The position numbers and the translations under genes are program-made. Shown in pieces: positions 1 to 63,107 of a stretch of DNA of 64,000 nt. The notes beneath the pieces were generated by a model. The model saw only the letters and a program-made list of their open reading frames with translations, did not search any database and was not told where the DNA came from. This DNA is from Tepidiforma bonchosmolovskayae (GTDB lineage: Bacteria; Chloroflexota; Dehalococcoidia; Tepidiformales; Tepidiformaceae), in the NCBI RefSeq assembly GCF_008838325.1, contig NZ_CP042829.1:1240001-1304000 (forward strand). The letters run 5' to 3'. Every line of letters starts with the position of its first letter. Positions within the stretch are counted from its first letter, which is position 1.

Positions 1-1026
1 CTCCGGCTCGCCGCGACGGACCTCGATATCTCGATCGTCGCCTGGGTGGGCGCGAAGGTGGATGAGCCGGGCGCGACGACCGTGCCGGCCCGCCTGATCA
101 GCGACTTTGTGGCGAACCTGCCCGCCGCCACCGTTTCGCTCGAGGCGCCGGCGAACGGCCGCCAGCTCCGCATCGAGTGCGCGCGGAACGATTCGACCGT
201 CAACGCCATGGACCCGGCCGACTTCCCGCGCGTGCCGGAGATCCGGGACGGCGTGGCCGTGCGGTTCGACCCGAAGGCGCTCCGCCGGGCCATCGAACGG
301 GTGGAGTTCGCCGCCGCCAGCGACGATTCGCGGCCGGTGCTGACCGGCGTCCACATGAAGAGCGACGGCCCGCGGCTCACCCTCGCCGCCGCCGACGGCT
401 TCCGCCTGGCCGTGGCCGATATCCAGCTGGAGGAGTCGCCGGCGGAGACGATCGAGGTGATCGTGCCGGCGCGGGCCCTGCGCGAACTCTCCCGCCTCAT
501 CGGCGATTCGACCCTGCCCGTGGAGATGCGCATCAACCCGCAGCGCTCCCAGGTGCTGTTCGAGTGGGACGACGTCCAGATGGTGTCGCAGCTCATCCAG
601 GGGACGTTCCCGAACTACAACCAGCTCATCCCCGCGCAGTTCAACACGCGCGTGATTGTGGATGTCGACGAATTCAAGCGGGAGGCGCGCATCGCCGCCA
701 TCTTCGCGCGCGACGGGAGCGGCATCATCCGGCTGATCATGACGCCGGGCGAGGGCGGCATGCCAGGCCAGCTCAGCATCAGCGCGCGCGCCGACGAAGT
801 GGGCGGCAACGAAGGCAAGCTCGACGCGGTGGTGGAGGGCGATGCCGCGAAGATCGCCTTCAACAGCCGGTACCTGCAGGACGTGCTGAACGCGATCGGC
901 GGGGGGCGGGTTGCCCTGGAGATGACGAGCCCCTCGGCGCAGGGCGTCTTCCGCCCCGTGGACGAAAACGGCACCCCGGAGCCGGGCTACGTCCACGTGG
1001 TGATGCCCATGTTCGTCCAGTGGTGA
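1..1026 (+). CDS. dnaN: DNA polymerase III beta sliding clamp, 3' part
   Basis: The frame is already open at base 1 and begins LAATDLDISI, a typical DnaN domain I segment, so roughly 35-45 N-terminal residues and the true start lie upstream. The 341 visible residues include the conserved SRPVLTGV strand of domain II and end VVMPMFVQW, close to the usual C-terminal M-P-[MV] ending. The clamp is a ring-shaped dimer that tethers Pol III to DNA; the polymerase subunit DnaE is encoded at 39520-43227. dnaN normally follows dnaA, so the left edge probably adjoins dnaA. No stop or frameshift interrupts the frame. The internal GTG at position 46 is not the start, because homology continues upstream of it. 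Confidence 0.95.
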   Translation, partial: LRLAATDLDISIVAWVGAKVDEPGATTVPARLISDFVANLPAATVSLEAPANGRQLRIECARNDSTVNAMDPADFPRVPEIRDGVAVRFDPKALRRAIERVEFAAASDDSRPVLTGVHMKSDGPRLTLAAADGFRLAVADIQLEESPAETIEVIVPARALRELSRLIGDSTLPVEMRINPQRSQVLFEWDDVQMVSQLIQGTFPNYNQLIPAQFNTRVIVDVDEFKREARIAAIFARDGSGIIRLIMTPGEGGMPGQLSISARADEVGGNEGKLDAVVEGDAAKIAFNSRYLQDVLNAIGGGRVALEMTSPSAQGVFRPVDENGTPEPGYVHVVMPMFVQW

Positions 1027-1038
1027 GGGGGCGGGGGG

Positions 1039-1647
1039 CTAGCGGGCGACCTCTTCGGGAGTCCCGCCGAGGTCGTCCAGCTCCTCCATCCGCGCGGCAT
1101 TGCGCCGGATCGCGAGGAGCGTCGCCGGCTCGGCCAGGCCAGCTTCCTCGAGGATGTCTCCACGCATTGCGGCGGTGAGGTCGGCCAGGGCGCTCATCAC
1201 CCTTTCGCCATCGAGCGCGGCGAGGCGCCCATCGGCGAGGCCTTCGAGCAGGCCGCGGAGCACGGCATCGAATTTGGCGACGACTTCGGCGCTGCCCACG
1301 ACGGCAAGCTTGTGGTTGAGCACGCGGAGTTCATCAATCAGCCGCGGTTCGAGTGCCTCGGCCTGGACGATCCGCGCGACGGTTTCGATGCACGCCATGT
1401 AGATGTCGCTCTTCTGCTGGAAGACGAGGACGCGTCCCTCCTTCCGGAGTTCGAGCTCGGTTTGCCGGTTGAGGAGGGCGGCGGTGAGGATGATGGTGGC
1501 CACGGCGCCGAGGAAGATGAGCACCATTTCCTGGGCGTAGGGGACGTACTCGCCGGCCAGGTAGAGCTCGCGGAAGGCGATATAGGCGAGCCCGGAGCCG
1601 AGGGCGAGGGCAGCGAGGTAGAGGAGGTCGCGCCTGCGGAACGACAC
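1039..1647 (-). CDS. Membrane protein with two N-terminal TM helices, unknown function
   Basis: This 202-aa protein starts at a GTG preceded by GGAG six bases upstream. An upstream in-frame start would add a Pro/Arg-rich tail with no ribosome site. Two hydrophobic segments (about residues 7-22 and 37-57) are followed by a charged, Leu/Ala-rich cytoplasmic region that is probably alpha-helical or coiled coil, containing LLNRQTELELRKEG. I do not recognise the family. It converges on dnaN with a 12-bp gap, and the DUF-less PEBP lipoprotein gene lies behind it on the same strand, about 100 bp away. Possible roles such as scaffold or sensor cannot be told from sequence. Confidence 0.65.
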   Translation of the reverse strand: MSFRRRDLLYLAALALGSGLAYIAFRELYLAGEYVPYAQEMVLIFLGAVATIILTAALLNRQTELELRKEGRVLVFQQKSDIYMACIETVARIVQAEALEPRLIDELRVLNHKLAVVGSAEVVAKFDAVLRGLLEGLADGRLAALDGERVMSALADLTAAMRGDILEEAGLAEPATLLAIRRNAARMEELDDLGGTPEEVAR

Positions 1648-1751
1648 GTGGAGCTCCCTTGCGACGGACTGACCGATACGGTACGGCGGGAGGGCCGCTC
1701 CGCGCACGGGGGCGGGGGAGGGGCGGGCAGGGTGGGGGCAGGTGCCGGGCC

Positions 1752-2315
1752 TCACGGCCGCCGGTGGGTGCCCGTCAGCTCGCCGGCGGCGATGGCGTGC
1801 CGGGCGAGCGCCCGCTCCACCTCGCCCCGCGAGGCGCCGGGGCCGGCCGGGAGCGGCGCATCGAGCGCATAGACGAGGAAGCGGTAGCGGTGCTCCTTGC
1901 CGCGCGGCGGACAGGGCCCGCCGTAGCCCAACCGACCGAAATCGTTCTTCCCTTCAACCGTCCCCTTCGGCATCCCGCCGCCGGGCGATGCCCCGGCCTC
2001 CAGAGCGGTCACGCTCGCGGGCAGGTTCCAGGCCAGCCAGTGGACGAACCCGTCGGCATCCGGGTCGTCGACCACAATCGCGAAGGCGGCCGTCCCCGCG
2101 GGCGCGCCCTCCCAGCGGAGCGGCGGCGAGCGGTCGGCGCCGTCGCAGGTGTACTCGGCCGGGATCACCCCGCCGTCGGCAAAGGCCGTGCTCGCGACCG
2201 CCAGGCGGGCCGCCGGCCGGGGCAGGTCGAGCGGCTCGCGGCCGCCGCAGGCCGGGGCGAAAAGCGCTGCGGCGGCCATCGCGCCGAACGTCAGCCAGGA
2301 CCCGATGGTTCGCAC
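1752..2315 (-). CDS. YbhB/YbcL-family (PEBP, Raf kinase inhibitor-like) lipoprotein
   Basis: The 187-aa product has the bacterial PEBP signature: DGADRSPPLRWEGAP near residue 70, then VVDDPDA, a HW motif (FVHWLAWNLP), GYGGPCPP and HRYRFLVYALD. These form the anion-binding pocket of phosphatidylethanolamine-binding proteins. The N-terminus VRTIGSWLTFGAMAAAALFA followed by PAC-GG is a lipoprotein signal with Cys23 as the likely lipidation site, so the protein is probably tethered outside the membrane. The GTG at 2313-2315 is chosen because it places the signal peptide at the N-terminus; longer in-frame starts add Arg/Pro-rich sequence. The physiological ligand of this bacterial family is generally unknown. 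Confidence 0.85.
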   Translation of the reverse strand: MRTIGSWLTFGAMAAAALFAPACGGREPLDLPRPAARLAVASTAFADGGVIPAEYTCDGADRSPPLRWEGAPAGTAAFAIVVDDPDADGFVHWLAWNLPASVTALEAGASPGGGMPKGTVEGKNDFGRLGYGGPCPPRGKEHRYRFLVYALDAPLPAGPGASRGEVERALARHAIAAGELTGTHRRP

Positions 2316-2438
2316 CGCGGCATCACCCGGGGGTGAAGGGTACACCGGATGGGCCGGCCCCGGTGGCGTGCGCCCCCCGCACCCGGCAGCCTGGCGCCGG
2401 GGGCCGGTGTGGATGCGCGGTGTGAGTCGGCCGGCGCG

Positions 2439-2465
2439 TTGACCCCGGCCCGGGGGAGCTATACT
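2439..2465 (+). promoter_or_regulatory. Possible promoter for the heliorhodopsin gene
   Basis: TTGACC at 2439-2444 and TATACT at 2460-2465 resemble sigma-70 boxes. The spacer is only 15 bp, shorter than optimal, so an activator may be needed or the match may be chance. Transcription would start near 2472, about 58 nt before the start codon. Confidence 0.35.
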
Positions 2466-2529
2466 CCGGCCGCCCCCGCAGCGGGCGCGCACGGCGTCCC
2501 GGTCTGCCGCAGGGGGCAGGAGGGCGCGC

Positions 2530-3276
2530 ATGGCAGCAGATGAGCCCGCGGCCGTCTACCGGAGGCTGCGCCGGTACAACTTCGTGATGGGGCTGGTGCA
2601 CCTCGCACAGGGCGCAGCAGTCCTCGCCCTCAGCAACGACTTTGCGCTGCCGGTCCACGCCACCTTCATGCAGGGGCCGCCCGGCCAGGAGCCGCCCCGC
2701 CTCGAGCACCTGTTCGACCTCCGCATCGGGCCGGCCGTGGCGGCGTTCCTCTTCATCTCGGCGGCGGCCCACCTGCTGCTCGTGCTGCCCGGGGTCTTCG
2801 ACTGGTACCGCCGCAACCTCGAACGCCAGCGGAACGATGCGCGCTGGATTGAATATTCGGTCAGCGCCTCGCTGATGGTGGTCCTGATCGCGATGCTGAC
2901 CGGCATCGGCGATGTCGCCGCCCTCGTGGCGCTGTTCGGCGTCAACGCGGCGATGATCTTCTTCGGGCTCCTCCAGGAGCACACCGAACGCCCGGGCGAG
3001 GGCCGACTCCTCCCGTTCTGGCTCGGGTGCATCGCCGGCGCGGTGCCGTGGGCGGCGATCGGCATCTACCTGCTCACCCCGGGGACGCCGGGCGAACCCC
3101 CGGGCTTTGTCTACGCCATCTACGTGTCGCTCTTCCTTTTCTTTAATGTCTTCGCGCTGAACATGTGGCTCCAGTACCGGCGCGTCGGCCCCTGGCGGAG
3201 CTACCTGTTCGGCGAGGCGGTCTACGTCTTCCTCAGCCTGGCGGCGAAGTCGGCGCTGGCCTGGCAGGTCTTCGCC

Positions 3277-3294
<18 letters not shown>
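2530..3294 (+). CDS. Heliorhodopsin
   Basis: The 254-aa, seven-helix protein matches heliorhodopsin throughout. Diagnostic segments are RRYNFVMGLVHLAQG in helix 1, RWIEYSVSASLMVVLIA in helix 3, NAAMIFFGLLQE in helix 4 and LAAKSALAWQVF in helix 7. Lys240 is in place to bind retinal as a Schiff base, and Glu108 matches the counterion (K241 and E107 in the 48C12 prototype). His24 and His81 correspond to its conserved histidines. Heliorhodopsins have inverted topology, with the N-terminus inside, and slow photocycles; a light-sensing or regulatory role is generally proposed rather than ion pumping. A good ribosome site, AGGAGG, lies 6 nt before the ATG. No carotenoid cleavage gene for retinal synthesis is in the window. 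The 3' end overlaps the convergent next gene by 18 bp. Confidence 0.95.
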
Positions 3295-6168
<2,874 letters not shown>

Positions 6169-6772: not shown

Positions 6773-7198
6773 GTGTCGACCCCCGGCAACGAACCGCAAC
6801 CGTCCGCAAGCGCGGAGATCGACCGCTTCATCGCCGGCATCGGCGACTGGCGCGGCGAAACGCTGGCCCGCCTGCGCGCGCTCATCCTCGAAGCCGACCC
6901 CGGCATCGTCGAAACATGGAAGTGGGTCACGCCCACCCGGCCGGGCGTCCCGGTGTGGGAGCGCGACGGCATCATCTGCACCGGCGGCGCCTTCCGCGGC
7001 TATGTCAAGCTCACCTTCGCCCGCGGCGCCGAACTGCCCGACCCGGCCGGGCTCTTCAACGCCGGCTTCGGCGGCAATGCGCGCCGGGCGATCGACCTCC
7101 GCGAGGGCGAATTCCCCGACCCGGAGGCGTTCAAGGAGCTGGTCCGGGCCGCCGCCGCGCTGAACGCCGCCATCCGCAGCGCGAAGCGCCGCCGCTGA
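6773..7198 (+). CDS. DUF1801 (YdhG-like) domain protein
   Basis: The 141-aa protein matches small DUF1801 proteins (YdhG-like, structurally related to frataxin-like folds). It has IDRFIAGIGDWRGETLARLRAL, ETWKWVTPTRPGVPVWERDG, then GYVKLTFARGAELPDP and a C-terminal RAIDLREGEFPDPEAFKELV. The GTG start at 6773 is favoured over the earlier ATG at 6731 by a GGAGGA ribosome site 6 nt upstream. A TACGAT box at 6727-6732 could be its -10 element. The biochemical role of the family is not established. Confidence 0.8.
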   Translation: MSTPGNEPQPSASAEIDRFIAGIGDWRGETLARLRALILEADPGIVETWKWVTPTRPGVPVWERDGIICTGGAFRGYVKLTFARGAELPDPAGLFNAGFGGNARRAIDLREGEFPDPEAFKELVRAAAALNAAIRSAKRRR

Positions 7199-56143: not shown

Positions 56144-56548
56144 ATGGACCGTTCGCGCCGCCTGCGGAAGGGTCCAGAGTTCGATACAGCGTATCAAAAG
56201 GGGACTGCCGTGCGCGGTCCCCTTTTGGTTGTGCGGGTGTCGCCGAACGGTCTGGGGCGGGACCGCTGGGGGTTTGCGGTGGGTCGGCGGCTGGCCCCGC
56301 TGGCGCACGACCGGAACCGGGTCCGGCGGCGGCTCCGGGAAGCGGCCCGCCAGGCCGGCGGGGAGCAGGGACGCGATATCATCGTGGTCGCGCGGGAGGG
56401 TGCGCTGACCGCGCCGGTTGCGGAGCTGGCAGCGGAGCTTCGGCGCCTCTTGCGGCGGACGTCGAAGGGTGGTGCCCCCGGGGAGCGCCGGTTGGCTGGG
56501 GATGCGGAGGCGGCCGGTCAGGAGCAGAAGCAGGAGGGCGACAGGTGA
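56144..56548 (+). CDS. rnpA: Ribonuclease P protein component
   Basis: The 134-aa basic protein has the RnpA pattern: [40 protein letters not shown] then RRRLREAAR (the RNR motif that binds the catalytic RNA) and DIIVVAREG. It assists the RNA subunit in tRNA 5' maturation. The last 25 residues are a non-conserved, Gly/Gln-rich tail overlapping yidD by 4 bp (GTGA). Confidence 0.97.
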
Positions 56549-56769
56549 TTGGCCGGGTGCTGGCGAAGCCGCTGATCTGGCTGGTGGTCGCGTACCAGGC
56601 GACGTTTTCGAAGGTCATGCCGCCGGTCTGCCGGTTCGAGCCGTCGTGCTCACGATACGCGAAGGAGGCGCTGGAGCGGCACGGGGCGTTTCGGGGCGGG
56701 TGGCTGGCGCTTCGGCGGCTGAGCCGGTGCCGTCCGTTTGGCGGGAGCGGGTACGACCCGGTGCCGTAA
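56545..56769 (+). CDS. yidD: Membrane protein insertion efficiency factor YidD
   Basis: The 74-aa protein has the YidD signature [20 protein letters not shown] followed by [24 protein letters not shown] short amphipathic N-terminus ([15 protein letters not shown]) associates with the membrane. It helps YidC-dependent insertion. It starts with GTG overlapping the rnpA stop. Unusually, the next gene of the classic order, yidC, is not adjacent: the parS array and a PQQ-type lipoprotein gene lie between. Confidence 0.96.
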
Positions 56770-56935
56770 GGGCGGAGCCGGGTTCCCGAGCCGTGCTGGC
56801 AATGGCGTGTGGGCGCGGGGAAGGCGCGGAACCGGGGCCGGTGTCGGCACGGGCATCGGACGGAAAGGTGGCACCTTCTCCCCGGTGCGGAGGGCGGGTA
56901 GCGAAGGAAAAGGCGGCCTGGTGCGTCGGTTGTCA

Positions 56936-57467
56936 TGTTTCACGTGGAACGGATAAGTCGCAGCTGAGCGCTGGCGCAGCGAGGAATGGGGCGGCGACGA
57001 ACCTGTGCGTCCGTTTCACGTGGAACCTGCCGCGTTCGGCGAGCAGCGGCAGCTGAGCGGGAGCCCTCGTCCGGCGAGGTCGGGATTCCCGCGGCTGTTC
57101 GGCGCGGCGTTTCACGTGAAACGCCAGCGCAGCGGTCGTTCCATGGCTTGCGCTCGGCCATCCTGGCTCGGCGCTGATGCAGCGCGCCGGGAAAGTCCCG
57201 CGGGGCGCGGCCCGGCGTTTCACGTGCCACACTGCCGCTTCGCGGTGCTGGCAGCCCAGCCCCGGGGCACGGTTTCACGTGGAACGCCCGCGACGCCGGG
57301 TTCGGGGACGGGGCGTCCGCCAGGCGTGTTTCACGTGGAACGCCGCCGGACGGCCAGGCCGCCCCCAGTGGGAGCCCCGGCCCTCGGGATGCCTCGCGCC
57401 GGTGTTTCACGGGGAACCCCGCACCCGCGCATCATGCGAACAAATGTTCGTCGTTCCACGTGGAACA
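56936..57467. repeat. parS: parS array (ParB-binding sites)
   Basis: The 746-bp gap between yidD and the PQQ-type gene has no other gene but holds eight 16-bp sites close to the parS consensus TGTTTCACGTGAAACA. They start at 56936, 57012, 57108, 57216, 57271, 57327, 57403 and 57452. The 57108 site (CGTTTCACGTGAAACG) and the core of the 57452 site (GTTCCACGTGGAAC) are perfect palindromes. Most others read GTTTCACGTGGAAC. Those at 57216 and 57403 are degenerate in one half. Spacing is 49-108 bp. ParB would load and spread from here; parAB lie 4-6 kb downstream. Confidence 0.92.
57437..57450. promoter_or_regulatory. LexA/DinR-like palindrome
   Basis: CGAACAAATGTTCG fits the GAAC-N4-GTTC core of Gram-positive-type SOS boxes. 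It lies 2 bp from the last parS site and about 60 bp upstream of the operon start. It may be a chance palindrome. Confidence 0.35.
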
Positions 57468-57503
57468 CCCCCGCCCCCGACGGCCCGTAAGCAAAGGGCC
57501 TGC

Positions 57504-57509
57504 TACCAT
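57504..57509 (+). promoter_or_regulatory. Extended -10 box of the yidC-parAB operon
   Basis: TACCAT preceded by TGC (an extended -10) ends 6 nt before the GTG start at 57516, so the operon transcript should be leaderless. No -35 match is visible. Confidence 0.5.
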
Positions 57510-57515
57510 CCTCGC

Positions 57516-58667
57516 GTGACTCGCCTCCGCCTCGCCGGCGCCGCCCTCCTCGCCGCCGCCGCCCTCCTCGCTTCCGCCTGCGTCTCCGTCACCAACCCCG
57601 AAGGCTGGGCCCCGCCCGTCCTCGACGGCACAGCCCTCTACCTCACCACCGACCATGGCCACATCTCCCGCACCGCCCTCGCCGCCGACGGCCGCTCCGC
57701 AACCGCCGCCTGGACGTTCCCCGATAAGGACATCAAGGCCGACGACAAACTCCGCCCCAACGCCGCCTACGGCCCACCCATCCTCGCCGACGGCCGCGTC
57801 TACTACGCCACCTACGAGGCCGGCGTCTTCGCCCTCAACGCCGAAACCGGCCGCCCCGAATGGCCCGAAGAAGGGAAGACCAACGCCTCCGCCATCAAGG
57901 GGAACATCGCCGGCGGCCTCGCCTACGCCAACGGCATCCTCTTCTTCGGCACCACCGAAGGCCGGCTCTACGGCTGGTACGCCGCCAACGGCGCCCCCGC
58001 CCAGGGCTGGGAGACTCCCCTCCAGTTCGACTCCGGCATCTGGGCCACGCCCGTCGCCATCGGCGGCACCCTCTACGTCGCCACAATGAACGGCGAACTC
58101 CACGCCATCCGCATCAGCGACCGCTCCCCCGCCTGGCCCCAGCCCCTCAAAATCTCCGGCGCCATCCCCGACCTCGTCGCCCTCGACGATGCCCGCCTCT
58201 TCGTTCCCAGCATCAACCGCCACGTCTACATCGTCGAGGCCGCCACCGGCCGGGTCCTCACCGACTTCCGCGCCAAAGACTGGGTCTGGACCGCCCCCGC
58301 CCTCGACGGCAACCGGCTCTTTTTCGGCGATTTTGGCGGGCACATCTACGGACTCGACATAAGCACGTCTCCGGCCACCGAGCTCTGGTCCCCGGCCTCC
58401 ACCGAAGGCCACCGCGTGAAAGCCGCCCCCGTCATCGTGGATGATGTGCTGGTGGTTGCCGACCGCGGCCCCGTCGTCACCTTCATCGATGCCCGCTCCG
58501 GCGAGGTCCTCAACCGCGTGCCGATCGACGGTGCCGGCACCGTCCGCGCCAACCTGCTCGCCGCCAACGGCGGGGCCTACATCCTGACGACGAAGGCCCG
58601 GCTCTTCTTCGCGAACCCGGCCAACCGCTCCGTCGTCGAAGTGCCGGTCAGCGGGGTGAAGCGCTGA
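57516..58667 (+). CDS. PQQ-like beta-propeller lipoprotein
   Basis: The 383-aa protein begins with a lipoprotein signal (LRLAGAALLAAAALLAS then AC, VSVTNPEGW) and has about seven blade-like repeats of the PQQ/quinoprotein type: YYATYEAGVFALNAETGRPE, LFFGTTEGRLYGWYAANG, LYVATMNGELHAIRISDRSP, VYIVEAATGRVL and FFGDFGGHIYGLDIS. It resembles BamB-like or quinoprotein propellers, but PQQ-binding residues are not evident. It is coupled to yidC by a TGATG overlap, so it may help at the membrane insertion site. It is the first gene of the operon. Confidence 0.88.
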   Translation: MTRLRLAGAALLAAAALLASACVSVTNPEGWAPPVLDGTALYLTTDHGHISRTALAADGRSATAAWTFPDKDIKADDKLRPNAAYGPPILADGRVYYATYEAGVFALNAETGRPEWPEEGKTNASAIKGNIAGGLAYANGILFFGTTEGRLYGWYAANGAPAQGWETPLQFDSGIWATPVAIGGTLYVATMNGELHAIRISDRSPAWPQPLKISGAIPDLVALDDARLFVPSINRHVYIVEAATGRVLTDFRAKDWVWTAPALDGNRLFFGDFGGHIYGLDISTSPATELWSPASTEGHRVKAAPVIVDDVLVVADRGPVVTFIDARSGEVLNRVPIDGAGTVRANLLAANGGAYILTTKARLFFANPANRSVVEVPVSGVKR

Positions 58668-59527
58668 TGGGCGAGCTCTTCACCATTGCCCTGCTCAACC
58701 CGATGGTGAACCTCCTGGTTCTCCTCAACAACGTGCTCTTCGGCTCGTTCGGGCTCGCCATCATCGCCTTCACCATCCTCGTCCGCGTCGCGACCTTCCC
58801 GCTCACCTACCGCCAGCTCCACGCTACCCGGCAGATGCAGGCGATCCAGCCCCGCGTCCAGGAGATCAACAAGAAGTACAGCGACCCGAAGCGCCGCCAG
58901 GAAGAGATGATGAAGCTCTACCGCGAAGCCGGCGTGAATCCCCTCGGCTGCCTCGGGCCGATGCTCATCCAGTTCCCCATCCTTATCGCCCTCTACAGCG
59001 CCGTCCGCATTGCGCTCCCGAACTCGCCGGAAGCCCTCGAAAAGCTCTCAAGCCACGTTTACGATTGGGCCTATCTCCAGCATGCCCTGCCCGTGAAGGA
59101 ATTCTTCCTCGGCATGGACCTGCGCCACCCCAACCTCCTCATGGTGGTGCTCGTGGGCATTACCACCTACGCCCAGTCGAAAACTACCGTCACTGTCAGC
59201 ACCGATGAACGGGTCCGCCAGCAGCAGGCCATGATGAACGTGATGCTGCCCCTGATGTTCGCCTTCTTCGCGCTCCAGTTCCCGAGCGGCGTCAGCCTCT
59301 ACTGGGTCGTGAACAGCATCGTCGGCATCGGCTTCAACATCCTCATCTATGGCTTCAAACCGCTCGGCATCGAACCGTTCTTCAAGGTCCGCGCGCCCGC
59401 ACCGGCGCCCGCGGCGGCCGAGCCAGCTCCCGCAGCGGCCGCCGTCTCATCTGCTCCAGAACTGAGGACACCCACCCATGGACCAGGCCGAAGCAAGCGG
59501 CAAAACCGTCGAAGACGCCCTGAATAA
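58667..59527 (+). CDS. yidC: Membrane protein insertase YidC/Oxa1
   Basis: The 286-aa protein is a Gram-positive-type YidC without the large periplasmic domain. It has five TM segments: FGSFGLAIIAFTILVRVATF, the coiled cytoplasmic loop QAIQPRVQEINKKYSDPKRR, LGCLGPMLIQFPILIALYSA and LPLMFAFFALQFPSGVSLYW. No lipobox is visible. The last 50 bp overlap the start of jag in another frame, giving a basic Arg-rich tail (SKRQNRRRRPE) that could contact ribosomes. It works with YidD and Sec. Confidence 0.96.
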   Translation: MGELFTIALLNPMVNLLVLLNNVLFGSFGLAIIAFTILVRVATFPLTYRQLHATRQMQAIQPRVQEINKKYSDPKRRQEEMMKLYREAGVNPLGCLGPMLIQFPILIALYSAVRIALPNSPEALEKLSSHVYDWAYLQHALPVKEFFLGMDLRHPNLLMVVLVGITTYAQSKTTVTVSTDERVRQQQAMMNVMLPLMFAFFALQFPSGVSLYWVVNSIVGIGFNILIYGFKPLGIEPFFKVRAPAPAPAAAEPAPAAAAVSSAPELRTPTHGPGRSKRQNRRRRPE

Positions 59528-60488
59528 CGCCCTCGCCATCCTCGGCGCAACCCGCGACGAAGTCGAAGTCACCATCCTCGACGAAGGCAAGAAAGGCGGC
59601 CTCTTCAGCCGCGGCCGCGATGCCGTCGTCCGCGTGACCCGGATCGCCCGCCCGGGCGCCGGGCCGGCCCCCGACCCGGCCCCGGCACCGTCCGCCGCCG
59701 ATGAGCCCCGCAACGGGGGCGGCCGCCCTCGCCAGCCGCGCCGCAGCCCCCAGGCCGCCGAGGGCGGCCAGCGCGGCGCAGGCCCGGCGGGAGCCCGCTC
59801 CGCCGAACCGCCGCCCCTCCGCCTCACCCAGGCCGATTTCCTCCGCCCCGGCGAGACGGCGCCCGCTGCGCCGGCGCGGGCCGAGCGGCCACGCCAGCCG
59901 GCCCGCCCGCGGCAGGAGCGCCCCGCGGCGCCTGCCCGCCCGGCGCGCCCATCCCGCCCGTCCCGGCCGAAGGAGGACCAGCCCCACGTGGAACCCGACA
60001 TCAACGCCGAGGAGGTCGATTTCGCCGCCCAGACGATCGACGACATCCTCCGCATCCTCGGCATCGACGCCGAAATCTCCATCCGTGAGCCGATCACACC
60101 GGGCGACGGCCGCGGCTCCGTCCTCGCCGTCATCGATATCCGCGGCGACAACCTCGGCGTGCTCATCGGCCGCCGCGGCGAAACCCTCCTTGCACTCCAG
60201 TTCCTCGTGAACCTCGCGCTCGCCCGGAAGTACCCCGGCCGCGGCGGCGTGACGGTCGACATCGAGCACTACCGCCACCGGAACGAGGAGCGGATCGTGG
60301 AGATGGCCCGCCGCATGGGCGACCGCGTCCGCCAGACCGGCACCCCGATCACGCTCGAACCGATGTCGGCCGCCGAACGGCGCATCGTCCACCTCCAGTT
60401 CGTCGATGACCCCGAGCTCGAAACCCACAGCATCGGCGAGGGGGAGAACCGCAAAGTCGTCATCAGCCGGAGAGGCGAAGGAGGCTAG
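59478..60488 (+). CDS. jag: Jag/KhpB RNA-binding protein
   Basis: The 336-aa protein has an N-terminal Jag domain (VEDALNNALAILGATRDEVE, DEGKKGGLFSRGRDAVVRV), a 120-residue Pro/Arg/Ala-rich linker, a KH domain (DNLGVLIGRRGETLLALQFL) and an R3H domain (RRMGDRVRQTGTPITLEPMS, ERRIVHLQF). It binds RNA and influences cell elongation and division in Firmicutes. The start lies inside yidC with a 50-bp overlap; no later start keeps the complete Jag domain. The pfkB ribosome site overlaps its stop. Confidence 0.93.
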   Translation: MDQAEASGKTVEDALNNALAILGATRDEVEVTILDEGKKGGLFSRGRDAVVRVTRIARPGAGPAPDPAPAPSAADEPRNGGGRPRQPRRSPQAAEGGQRGAGPAGARSAEPPPLRLTQADFLRPGETAPAAPARAERPRQPARPRQERPAAPARPARPSRPSRPKEDQPHVEPDINAEEVDFAAQTIDDILRILGIDAEISIREPITPGDGRGSVLAVIDIRGDNLGVLIGRRGETLLALQFLVNLALARKYPGRGGVTVDIEHYRHRNEERIVEMARRMGDRVRQTGTPITLEPMSAAERRIVHLQFVDDPELETHSIGEGENRKVVISRRGEGG

Positions 60489-60490
60489 CC

Positions 60491-61324
60491 ACGCGCGCAC
60501 TGGTCGCCGGCAACGTCGCCCTCGACCGCACCCCCGATGGCGGGTGGGCGCCCGGCGGCCCTGCGCTCTATTCGGCGCTCATGGCCCGCTCCCTCGGCTG
60601 CGAGGTCACCCTCATCACCGCCCTCGAACCCGATTTCCCCCTCGGCATCCTCGACGGCATCGACCTCCGCGCCGCGCCGGGGCTCGTCGCCCGCTACGAA
60701 AACCGGTACGACGCCCGCGGCAACCGCACCCAGCGCCTGCTCGCGCCCGGGAGCGACCTCCAGCTCGTGCCGCACCTCTACCCCGGCGAAACGTTCGACC
60801 TCGTCTTCTACGCCCCGGCCTACCACGAGTTCCGGAAGGCGCCGCTCCGCTTCAAGGGGGCCGTCGTCGGCGTCTCGCTCCAGGGCGCCCTCCGCGCGTG
60901 CGAACCCGACGGCCGCGTCGTCCCGAACCCCCGCCCGCTCGAGGCGGCCCGCGCCCTCGTCCGCCCCGGCTGGTGCGCGTTCCTGAGCGAGGAGGACACC
61001 GCCGCCCCCGAGGCCCTCGCCGCCGCCCTCGCCGCGGAGAAAACGCTCGTTGTCCTGACGCGTGGCTACAACGGCGCTACACTGTTCGAACTGGATGGCA
61101 GCACGCAGAGCTACCCCGCCCTGCCTGCCCTGGCGACCGAGCCGACCGGCGCCGGCGACTGCTTCGCCATGGCGTTCATGGTCCGCCTCGCCGAGACCGA
61201 CTCCGTCGACCAGGCGATGCGGTTCGCGCTCGCGGCGGGCGCCCTCGCCGTCGAAGCGCCCGGGCTCGCCGGCATCGCCACCCGCGCCGCCATCGAAGAA
61301 CGTATGACCAGGGAGGCCGCCTGA
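60491..61324 (+). CDS. PfkB-family carbohydrate/nucleoside kinase, probable ACG start
   Basis: The 277-aa ribokinase-fold protein has an N-terminal ALVAGNVALD, GGWAPGGPALYSALMARSLG, and the C-terminal anion-hole/catalytic motif PTGAGDCFAMAFMVRLAE (catalytic Asp in GAGD). The homologous region starts before any ATG, GTG or TTG: the first such codon (ATG 60581) would remove the first beta-strand and the GG motif. An AAGGAGG ribosome site at 60478-60484 lies exactly 6 nt before an ACG codon, followed by CGCGCACTGGTC. An ACG start, rare but known, or a CTG at 60500, is therefore proposed. It overlaps parA by one base. Substrate unknown. Confidence 0.75.
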   Translation, partial: TRALVAGNVALDRTPDGGWAPGGPALYSALMARSLGCEVTLITALEPDFPLGILDGIDLRAAPGLVARYENRYDARGNRTQRLLAPGSDLQLVPHLYPGETFDLVFYAPAYHEFRKAPLRFKGAVVGVSLQGALRACEPDGRVVPNPRPLEAARALVRPGWCAFLSEEDTAAPEALAAALAAEKTLVVLTRGYNGATLFELDGSTQSYPALPALATEPTGAGDCFAMAFMVRLAETDSVDQAMRFALAAGALAVEAPGLAGIATRAAIEERMTREAA

Positions 61325-62094
61325 TGGGAGCTCGCATCGTCTCGCTCGTCAACCAGAAAGGCGGCGTCGGCAAAACCACCACCGCCGTCTCCCTCGCCGT
61401 GGCCCTCGCCCGCCGCGGCCAGCGCGTCCTCCTCGTCGACCTCGACCCGCAGGCGAACGCGACCAGCGCCCTCGGCGTCCTGCGCAGCGACCGCCCCGGC
61501 GTCTACGATGCGCTCCTCGACGAGACGCCGATCGACGAGTGCATCGCCCGCGTCGAAGCGGAGGGCGTCGACCTCGTGCCTTCGAGTGCGGAGCTCTCCG
61601 GCGCGGAGGTCGAACTCGTCCCCGTCCTCGCCCGGGAGCGGCGGCTCGTGAACGCCCTTCAGCCCGTGCGCGAACGGTACGACTGGGTGCTGATCGACTG
61701 CCCGCCCTCGCTCGGGCTGCTCACGATCAACGCGCTGACCGCGAGCGACAGCGTCATCATCCCCGTCCAGTGCGAGTACATGGCGCTCGAGGGACTGAGC
61801 CGGCTGATGGAGACGCTCGAACTCGTCCGCCGGAACCTGAACCCGGGCCTCTACATTCTCGGCGTCATCCTCACGATGTTCGACCCGCGCACCCGGCTCG
61901 CCCAGCAGGTGGTCGATGAGGTGCGGGGCCACTTCCCGCAGACGTTCGCGACCATCATCCCGCGGTCGGTCCGCCTGAGCGAGGCGCCGAGCCACGGCCA
62001 GTCGATCTTCCGCTACGACCCGGGCGGCCGCTCGGCCGCCGCTTACGAGGCCGTCGCCTCCGAACTCTTGGAACGCGTGGGAGTCGCCGTATGA
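61324..62094 (+). CDS. parA: Chromosome-partitioning ATPase ParA/Soj
   Basis: The 256-aa ATPase has the deviant Walker A motif VNQKGGVGKTTTAVSLAVAL, LLVDLDPQANATSALGV, Walker B WVLIDCPPSLGLLTINAL, and the C-terminal RSVRLSEAPSHGQSIFRYDP of Soj proteins. It binds DNA as an ATP dimer and, with ParB-parS, moves replicated origins apart. The ATG shares one base with the pfkB stop (TGATG) and the gene overlaps parB by 4 bp. Confidence 0.97.
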   Translation: MGARIVSLVNQKGGVGKTTTAVSLAVALARRGQRVLLVDLDPQANATSALGVLRSDRPGVYDALLDETPIDECIARVEAEGVDLVPSSAELSGAEVELVPVLARERRLVNALQPVRERYDWVLIDCPPSLGLLTINALTASDSVIIPVQCEYMALEGLSRLMETLELVRRNLNPGLYILGVILTMFDPRTRLAQQVVDEVRGHFPQTFATIIPRSVRLSEAPSHGQSIFRYDPGGRSAAAYEAVASELLERVGVAV

Positions 62095-63107
62095 CACAGC
62101 CGAAGCGTGGACTGGGCCGGGGGCTCGATGCCCTCTTCGGGAGCTCCTCGGCAGCGCCCCCGGTGCAGGAGCCGCCCGCCCCCGCACCGCAGCCCCCCGC
62201 CAGCGAGGCGCCGACCATTCCCGAGCGCGAACCGGCGCACGAGGTCCCGCCGGAGGCGGCTGCCCGCGTCGCGCCGGAGCCGCGGCCCGCCCCGCCCGCC
62301 CGCCGCGGCGGCCCTGAGCTGCTCGATATCGACCTGATTGCGCCCAATCCCGAGCAGCCGCGCACCCACTTCGAACCCGAGCAGCTGCGCGAGCTCGCCG
62401 AATCGATCCGCGAGCACGGCATCATCCAGCCGCTCATCGTCACCCGCGACGACGAAGGCGGCTACCGGCTCATCGCCGGCGAACGGCGCCTGCAGGCAGC
62501 TCGCCTCGCCGGGCTCGAAACGGTGCCCGTCGTGGTCCGCGAAGCCGCGGATTCGGAGCTGCTCGAGCTCGCCCTTATCGAAAACATCCAGCGCGCCGAC
62601 CTGAACCCGGTCGAAGAGGCGATGGCCTACCGCCGCCTCATCGAGGAGTACGGCCTCACGCAGGAGGAGGTGGCCCGGAGGGTCGGCAAGAGCCGCGCCA
62701 CGATCGCGAACGCGCTCCGCCTGCTCCAGCTCGAGGCGGAGATCCGGCGCAGCCTCGTCAGCGGCGAAATCACCGAAGGCCACGCCCGCGCCCTCCTCGG
62801 CCTGCCCGAGGGGCGAGGCCGGGTGAACGCATGGCGCGAGGTCGTCCGCCGCCAGATGTCGGTCCGCGACACCGAAAGCTATGTCCGGCGGCAGCTCGCG
62901 GCCTCCCCCGCGACCGCCTCGAAGCCGGCCGCGCAGACGGCCCGCCGCGATGCGGCGCTCAGCGACATCGAAGCCCGCCTCCGGCGCGCCCTGAGCACCC
63001 GCGTCCGCGTCGAACCGCAGAAGAAGGGCGCGAAAATCATCATCGAGTGCTACTCGCCGGAGGAGTTCGAGAACGTCGTCGCCACCCTGCTCGGGGAGTA
63101 CCAGTAG
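62091..63107 (+). CDS. parB: Chromosome-partitioning CTPase ParB/Spo0J
   Basis: The 338-aa protein starts with the ParA-interacting GLGRGLDALFG peptide, then a Pro/Ala-rich linker, the ParB/Srx CTPase domain (DLIAPNPEQPRTHFEPEQL, YRLIAGERRLQAARLAGLE), the arm and HTH region (LIENIQRADLNPVEEAMAYR, LTQEEVARRVGKSRATIANA) and a C-terminal dimerisation domain. It binds parS and slides as a CTP clamp. Its likely targets are the array at 56936-57467. It overlaps parA by 4 bp. Confidence 0.97.
   Translation: MTQPKRGLGRGLDALFGSSSAAPPVQEPPAPAPQPPASEAPTIPEREPAHEVPPEAAARVAPEPRPAPPARRGGPELLDIDLIAPNPEQPRTHFEPEQLRELAESIREHGIIQPLIVTRDDEGGYRLIAGERRLQAARLAGLETVPVVVREAADSELLELALIENIQRADLNPVEEAMAYRRLIEEYGLTQEEVARRVGKSRATIANALRLLQLEAEIRRSLVSGEITEGHARALLGLPEGRGRVNAWREVVRRQMSVRDTESYVRRQLAASPATASKPAAQTARRDAALSDIEARLRRALSTRVRVEPQKKGAKIIIECYSPEEFENVVATLLGEYQ

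Follow-up and report, generated by a model that had tools for sequence, protein, structure and literature searches.

Among the heliorhodopsins (HeRs) of solved structure, the actinobacterial 48C12 (PDB 6SU3, 6UH3, 9LJJ) and the archaeal TaHeR from Thermoplasmatales (PDB 6IS6, 7CLJ) are the nearest to the protein considered here, and no transport was found for either of them (PMC9448325). Some viral HeRs do transport protons. The hallmark of the proton-transporting V2HeR3 is a pair of TM6 residues, E191 and W195, whose equivalents in TaHeR are I199 and F203 (PMC9448325). Other HeRs regulate partner proteins: AbHeR regulates glutamine synthetase (PMC9529153), TfHeR regulates photolyase (PMC9769723) and OcHeR regulates an ABC transporter (PMC11109279). 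In each of these three systems the partner is encoded beside the HeR gene, and for AbHeR and OcHeR it is encoded in the same operon. Across phyla, an enrichment of redox genes (catalase among them) in the vicinity of HeRs has been reported, with three actinobacterial cases in which a catalase lies nearby, and a general proposal connecting HeRs with oxidative stress has already been published (PMC8612252).

Identity and key residues of the heliorhodopsin

The genome of Tepidiforma bonchosmolovskayae is a single contig of 2.75 Mb that is 98.6% complete. The window (the whole stretch of 64,000 nucleotides that was analysed, with a G+C content of 71.5%) contains an HeR gene on the plus strand at 2530-3294, which encodes 254 aa from an ATG start and is preceded, six bases before the ATG, by an AGGAGG ribosome-binding site (2518-2523, plus strand). 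An earlier note, made from the letters alone, had called this gene a heliorhodopsin and had named a family profile search as the check, with a better match to another seven-transmembrane family as the outcome that would speak against it. The profile search bears the assignment out, since the protein scores 341 bits (E 4e-102; cut-off 26.7) against Pfam Heliorhodopsin PF18761 and 325 bits (cut-off 100) against the NCBIfam HeR equivalog NF038020, compared with 16.1 bits, below the cut-off of 24.6, for the type-1 rhodopsin model Bac_rhodopsin. A search for type-1 rhodopsins found none in the same genome, and 14 control genomes were equally silent in that search. In a PDB search the nearest solved relative is 48C12 (E 8e-76, residues 11-253), followed by TaHeR (E 1e-63).

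The key residues are in place, as the earlier note had also claimed for the retinal lysine and its counterion. Lys240 aligns with K241 of 48C12 and Glu108 with E107, while H24, H81, Q215 and E229 align with H23, H80, Q216 and E230. All six residues are invariant in an alignment of 11 HeRs of the order. The protein shares with 48C12 the retinal Lys, the counterion Glu, the equivalents of Glu230 and Gln216 and the AKSALAWQ motif. Apart from the actinobacterial origin of 48C12, the two differ by short loop differences and at Val-Gln 212-213 of 48C12, which is Asn-Met in the window protein, as in TaHeR. TaHeR is less similar overall. Under a topology with the N-terminus inside, the loops contain 13 Lys/Arg residues on the inside and 1 on the outside (helix limits were set by hand), a pattern that fits the inverted orientation of HeRs with a cytoplasmic N-terminus. 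An AlphaFold model has seven transmembrane helices, although it is a weak model (pLDDT 62.8). Comparison with a 92%-identical copy in the congener G026 gives a dN/dS of 0.13 (Nei-Gojobori), and the gene is therefore kept by purifying selection. Judged by its sequence, the gene is a real heliorhodopsin, full-length and intact, and its product is probably functional.

Gene neighborhood

The landmark of the region is dnaN (1-1026, plus strand), which was recognised from sequence and position without a family search; its start is cut off by the window (the protein has 382 aa in L029). Divergent from the HeR gene is a gene for a PEBP/YbhB-family protein (1752-2315, minus strand), assigned by profile matches and probably a lipoprotein, for which a GTG start at 2315 was chosen by inspection from a lipobox-like sequence. 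The intergenic stretch between the two (2316-2529), when compared with the corresponding region of G026, reveals a conserved -10-like motif, GCTATACTCCG, about 60 bp before the HeR gene. A promoter scan did not find a canonical sigma-70 pair. On the other side lies a convergent gene for a 170-aa protein (3277-3789, minus strand), followed by katG, which encodes a catalase-peroxidase HPI identified by profile matches (4003-6168, plus strand). As the earlier note had described, the 170-aa gene is the only one between HeR and katG and its 3' end overlaps the HeR gene by 18 bp (3277-3294).

The 170-aa protein has no Pfam, NCBIfam or meaningful PDB match. Within the order its gene was seen only in this genus, where it is about 79-80% identical in G026 and about 30% identical in the HeR-less G022. 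The PEBP gene and the 170-aa gene are the only immediate neighbours of HeR that are kept in both HeR-bearing congeners (the window genome and G026), and relatives of both proteins occur in HeR-less congeners too. The stretch beside dnaN (window 1-6168; L016, L018, L073, L074) differs strongly in gene content among congeners, and accessory genes such as a DUF1801 gene (6773-7198) recur in it. Farther along the window, at 56231-63107 and about 55 kb from dnaN, are genes that by eye resemble rnpA, yidD, yidC, jag, parA and parB, which are usual neighbours of the replication origin.

Relationship to katG

HeR and katG lie about 0.7 kb apart in the window, and the earlier note had drawn from this a possible link between light and oxidative stress. 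Because the intervening gene runs in the opposite direction, there is no simple HeR-katG operon. By the criterion used in the published survey of HeR-redox operons, the redox gene must be on the same strand and less than 10 bp from HeR (PMC8612252), and the intervening minus-strand gene at 3277-3789 places this pair outside it.

The arrangement was compared across 38 genomes of the order, 12 of which bear an HeR (one of them as a short C-terminal fragment). The window genome is the only HeR-bearing genome in which katG adjoins HeR. In G026 HeR and the start of the downstream katG are separated by about 7.3 kb, and in the others katG is on other contigs or undetected (G008, G009); G009, which is 97% complete, has HeR with katG undetected. 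The HeR-less congeners G022 and G024 also have katG (94% identical) downstream of dnaN and in the same orientation. The interval from dnaN to katG, which holds other genes, is 3.0 kb in the window, about 11.9 kb in G026, about 10.4 kb in G022 and about 7.4 kb in G024. In G009, a sister-genus genome, HeR is near dnaN as well, in the opposite orientation. Since katG follows dnaN whether HeR is present or not, HeR and katG simply share a variable stretch beside dnaN, and conserved HeR-katG synteny can be set aside (1 of 12 HeR-bearing genomes). Elsewhere, a tblastn search for katG in HeR loci of other species (1.1 Mb in all, at most 10 kb per side) found it at 0 of 80 loci.

Neither co-occurrence nor promoter sequence ties the two genes together. 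Counted over genomes many of which are incomplete MAGs, katG is present in 10 of the 12 HeR-bearing genomes and in 19 of the 26 others (Fisher P 0.69). The regions upstream of HeR and katG have no common word of at least 8 bases in both G000 (the window genome) and G026, and a separate -10-like motif is conserved before each of them, as judged by eye (GCTATACT; TGCTAGAAT), with no canonical promoter emerging from the scan; a shared promoter element was rejected on these grounds. The adjacency of HeR and katG is most likely coincidental. Neither the order of the genes nor their operon structure, their co-occurrence or a comparison of promoters thus supports the proposed link through katG, and this locus lends no support to the general oxidative-stress proposal, although HeR may still regulate katG at a distance.

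Heliorhodopsins across the order

In a 45-row tree the window HeR groups with those of G026, G009 and G037 in a supported clade (100/100). The HeRs of the order are otherwise scattered, and the supported branches force at least five changes, a distribution consistent with transfer and loss having occurred repeatedly. Within one genus of this order (L019:10424-12172, G007; L023:1305-3111, G005) the gene directly upstream of HeR, on the same strand and separated from it by 24-61 bp, belongs to the PIG3-type NAD(P)H quinone oxidoreductase family. This pair is a better operon candidate than HeR and katG. The oxidoreductase gene is kept in G003 beside only the C-terminal HeR fragment.

Source of retinal

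The earlier note had seen no retinal-forming gene in the window, had left the source of the chromophore as a question and had proposed a search of the genome. That search answers the question in part: a carotenoid pathway and one oxygenase of the CCD type are encoded outside the window, and a Blh/Brp enzyme is not among the findings. Specifically, Blh/Brp (PF15461) was found neither in the window genome nor in the other 37 genomes of the order, with control genomes silent as well; the same search does find a Blh/Brp gene in the Nanopelagicales HeR bearer G042. The carotenoid cluster of the window genome (L028:4344-10628) comprises crtB, crtI, a cytochrome P450 gene, a lycopene-cyclase-domain gene and a gene for a CruG/HpnB-like glycosyltransferase, which suggests that its product may be a glycosylated, perhaps acylated, cyclic carotenoid. 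The cluster is compact and also includes a PlsY-like acyltransferase gene.

The single PF03055 carotenoid oxygenase of the genome (G000:C1:884979-886370) has the four histidine motifs of its family visible in alignment. It is most closely related to carotenoid 9,10-dioxygenases (388 bits) and scores 359 bits with a 13,14-cleaving model, below that model's cut-off; apocarotenoid-15,15'-oxygenase (ACO, 196 bits) and beta-carotene 15,15'-oxygenase (BCO1, 107 bits) are weaker relatives. Enzymes related to it are able to form retinal, as in the case of MtCCO, which cuts at both 13,14 and 15,15' (PMC5133782). The gene order around the oxygenase is the same in congeners with and without HeR, and four HeR-bearing genomes that are at least 95% complete (G009, G015, G020, G037) lack both the Blh/Brp and the PF03055 families. 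The oxygenase is therefore not dedicated to HeR. RPE65 was counted as a possible mark of an enzyme dedicated to retinal; it occurs in 5 of the 12 HeR-bearing genomes against 6 of the 26 others (P 0.27), and co-occurrence with HeR is not supported. The CCD1-like oxygenase is thus best described as a candidate, non-dedicated source of retinal. An actinobacterium without Blh has been shown to make retinal by a route that was not identified (PMC7734400).

Function and proposed mechanism

The explanation that accounts best for the locus, and one that is quite likely to be correct as a whole, is that of an ordinary prokaryotic HeR: a retinal-bound photosensor or regulator, encoded by a lone gene, with katG as an incidental neighbour. 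The protein would be a seven-helix membrane protein with a cytoplasmic N-terminus that binds retinal at Lys240, with Glu108 as the counterion. Light would isomerise the retinal and, by analogy with 48C12 and TaHeR, the change would pass to the cytoplasmic face. HeR most likely acts as a slow photosensor or as a light-dependent regulator of some partner protein. AbHeR, TfHeR and OcHeR serve as models for such a regulator, with the difference that the window HeR has no same-strand operon neighbour; probably it has a promoter of its own and is expressed as a single gene. The gene order does not reveal which protein its partner is, and katG is nearby through the variable stretch that both genes share downstream of dnaN. 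The retinal might be cut from a cyclised carotenoid by the CCD1-like oxygenase, which is not dedicated to this task, or might come from another route or by uptake from neighbours. The more specific scenario of a working HeR photosensor in a thermophilic Chloroflexota that obtains retinal without Blh, through a CCD1/MtCCO-like oxygenase or another route on a cyclised carotenoid, is tentative and, taken as a whole, rather doubtful.

Three other readings carry less weight. Proton transport by this protein, whether driven or gated by light, is very improbable. The precedent is viral, and V2HeR3 does have the same Schiff-base counterion and a conserved TM7 Glu (E215, corresponding to E229 in the window), but its transport hallmark is replaced: by alignment through TaHeR, the positions of E191 and W195 are L201 and F205, and TaHeR likewise has a hydrophobic residue and a Phe there. 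These replacements set the protein apart from the V2HeR3 type, and together with the similarity to 48C12 and TaHeR, for which transport was not observed, they favour a role as sensor or regulator, so that the protein is probably one of these and not a transporter. There is a greater, but still small, chance that the HeR is mostly free of retinal in the cell, or has a light-independent role, for want of a retinal enzyme. The missing Blh/Brp, the resemblance of the sole carotenoid oxygenase to 9,10- and 13,14-cleaving enzymes and the four near-complete HeR-bearing relatives without either family all point that way; the invariance of Lys240 and Glu108 in the 11 HeRs of the order, the purifying selection on the gene and the retinal made by a Blh-less bacterium point the other way.

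It is also highly unlikely that KatG is induced or directly modulated by a light-sensing HeR as a defence of the cell against peroxide stress driven by light. The short distance between the genes, about 0.7 kb in the window and no more than about 7.3 kb in G026, would suit this, as would the redox genes and the actinobacterial catalases found near other HeRs (PMC8612252), and Tepidiforma often occurs together with phototrophic mats, a setting in which peroxide stress is to be expected (PMC10284905; the word rhodopsin is absent from the main text of that paper). The opposite-strand gene between the two, the retention of katG beside dnaN in HeR-less congeners, its non-adjacency in every other HeR-bearing genome of the order and at all 80 other HeR loci, the near-complete G009 with HeR and katG undetected, and the lack of co-occurrence and of shared promoter words all argue against it.

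Implications

The heliorhodopsin family is already known, and the window adds a Chloroflexota member to it. HeR and katG, which both belong to the variable stretch next to dnaN, formed an attractive pairing that vanishes on comparison, a warning that function is unsafe to infer from one HeR neighbourhood. The function of HeRs is unsettled in general, and many rhodopsin-bearing prokaryotes are without a known retinal gene. Tepidiforma offers a complete genome in a genus with pure cultures, which makes both the source of retinal and the partner of HeR directly testable.
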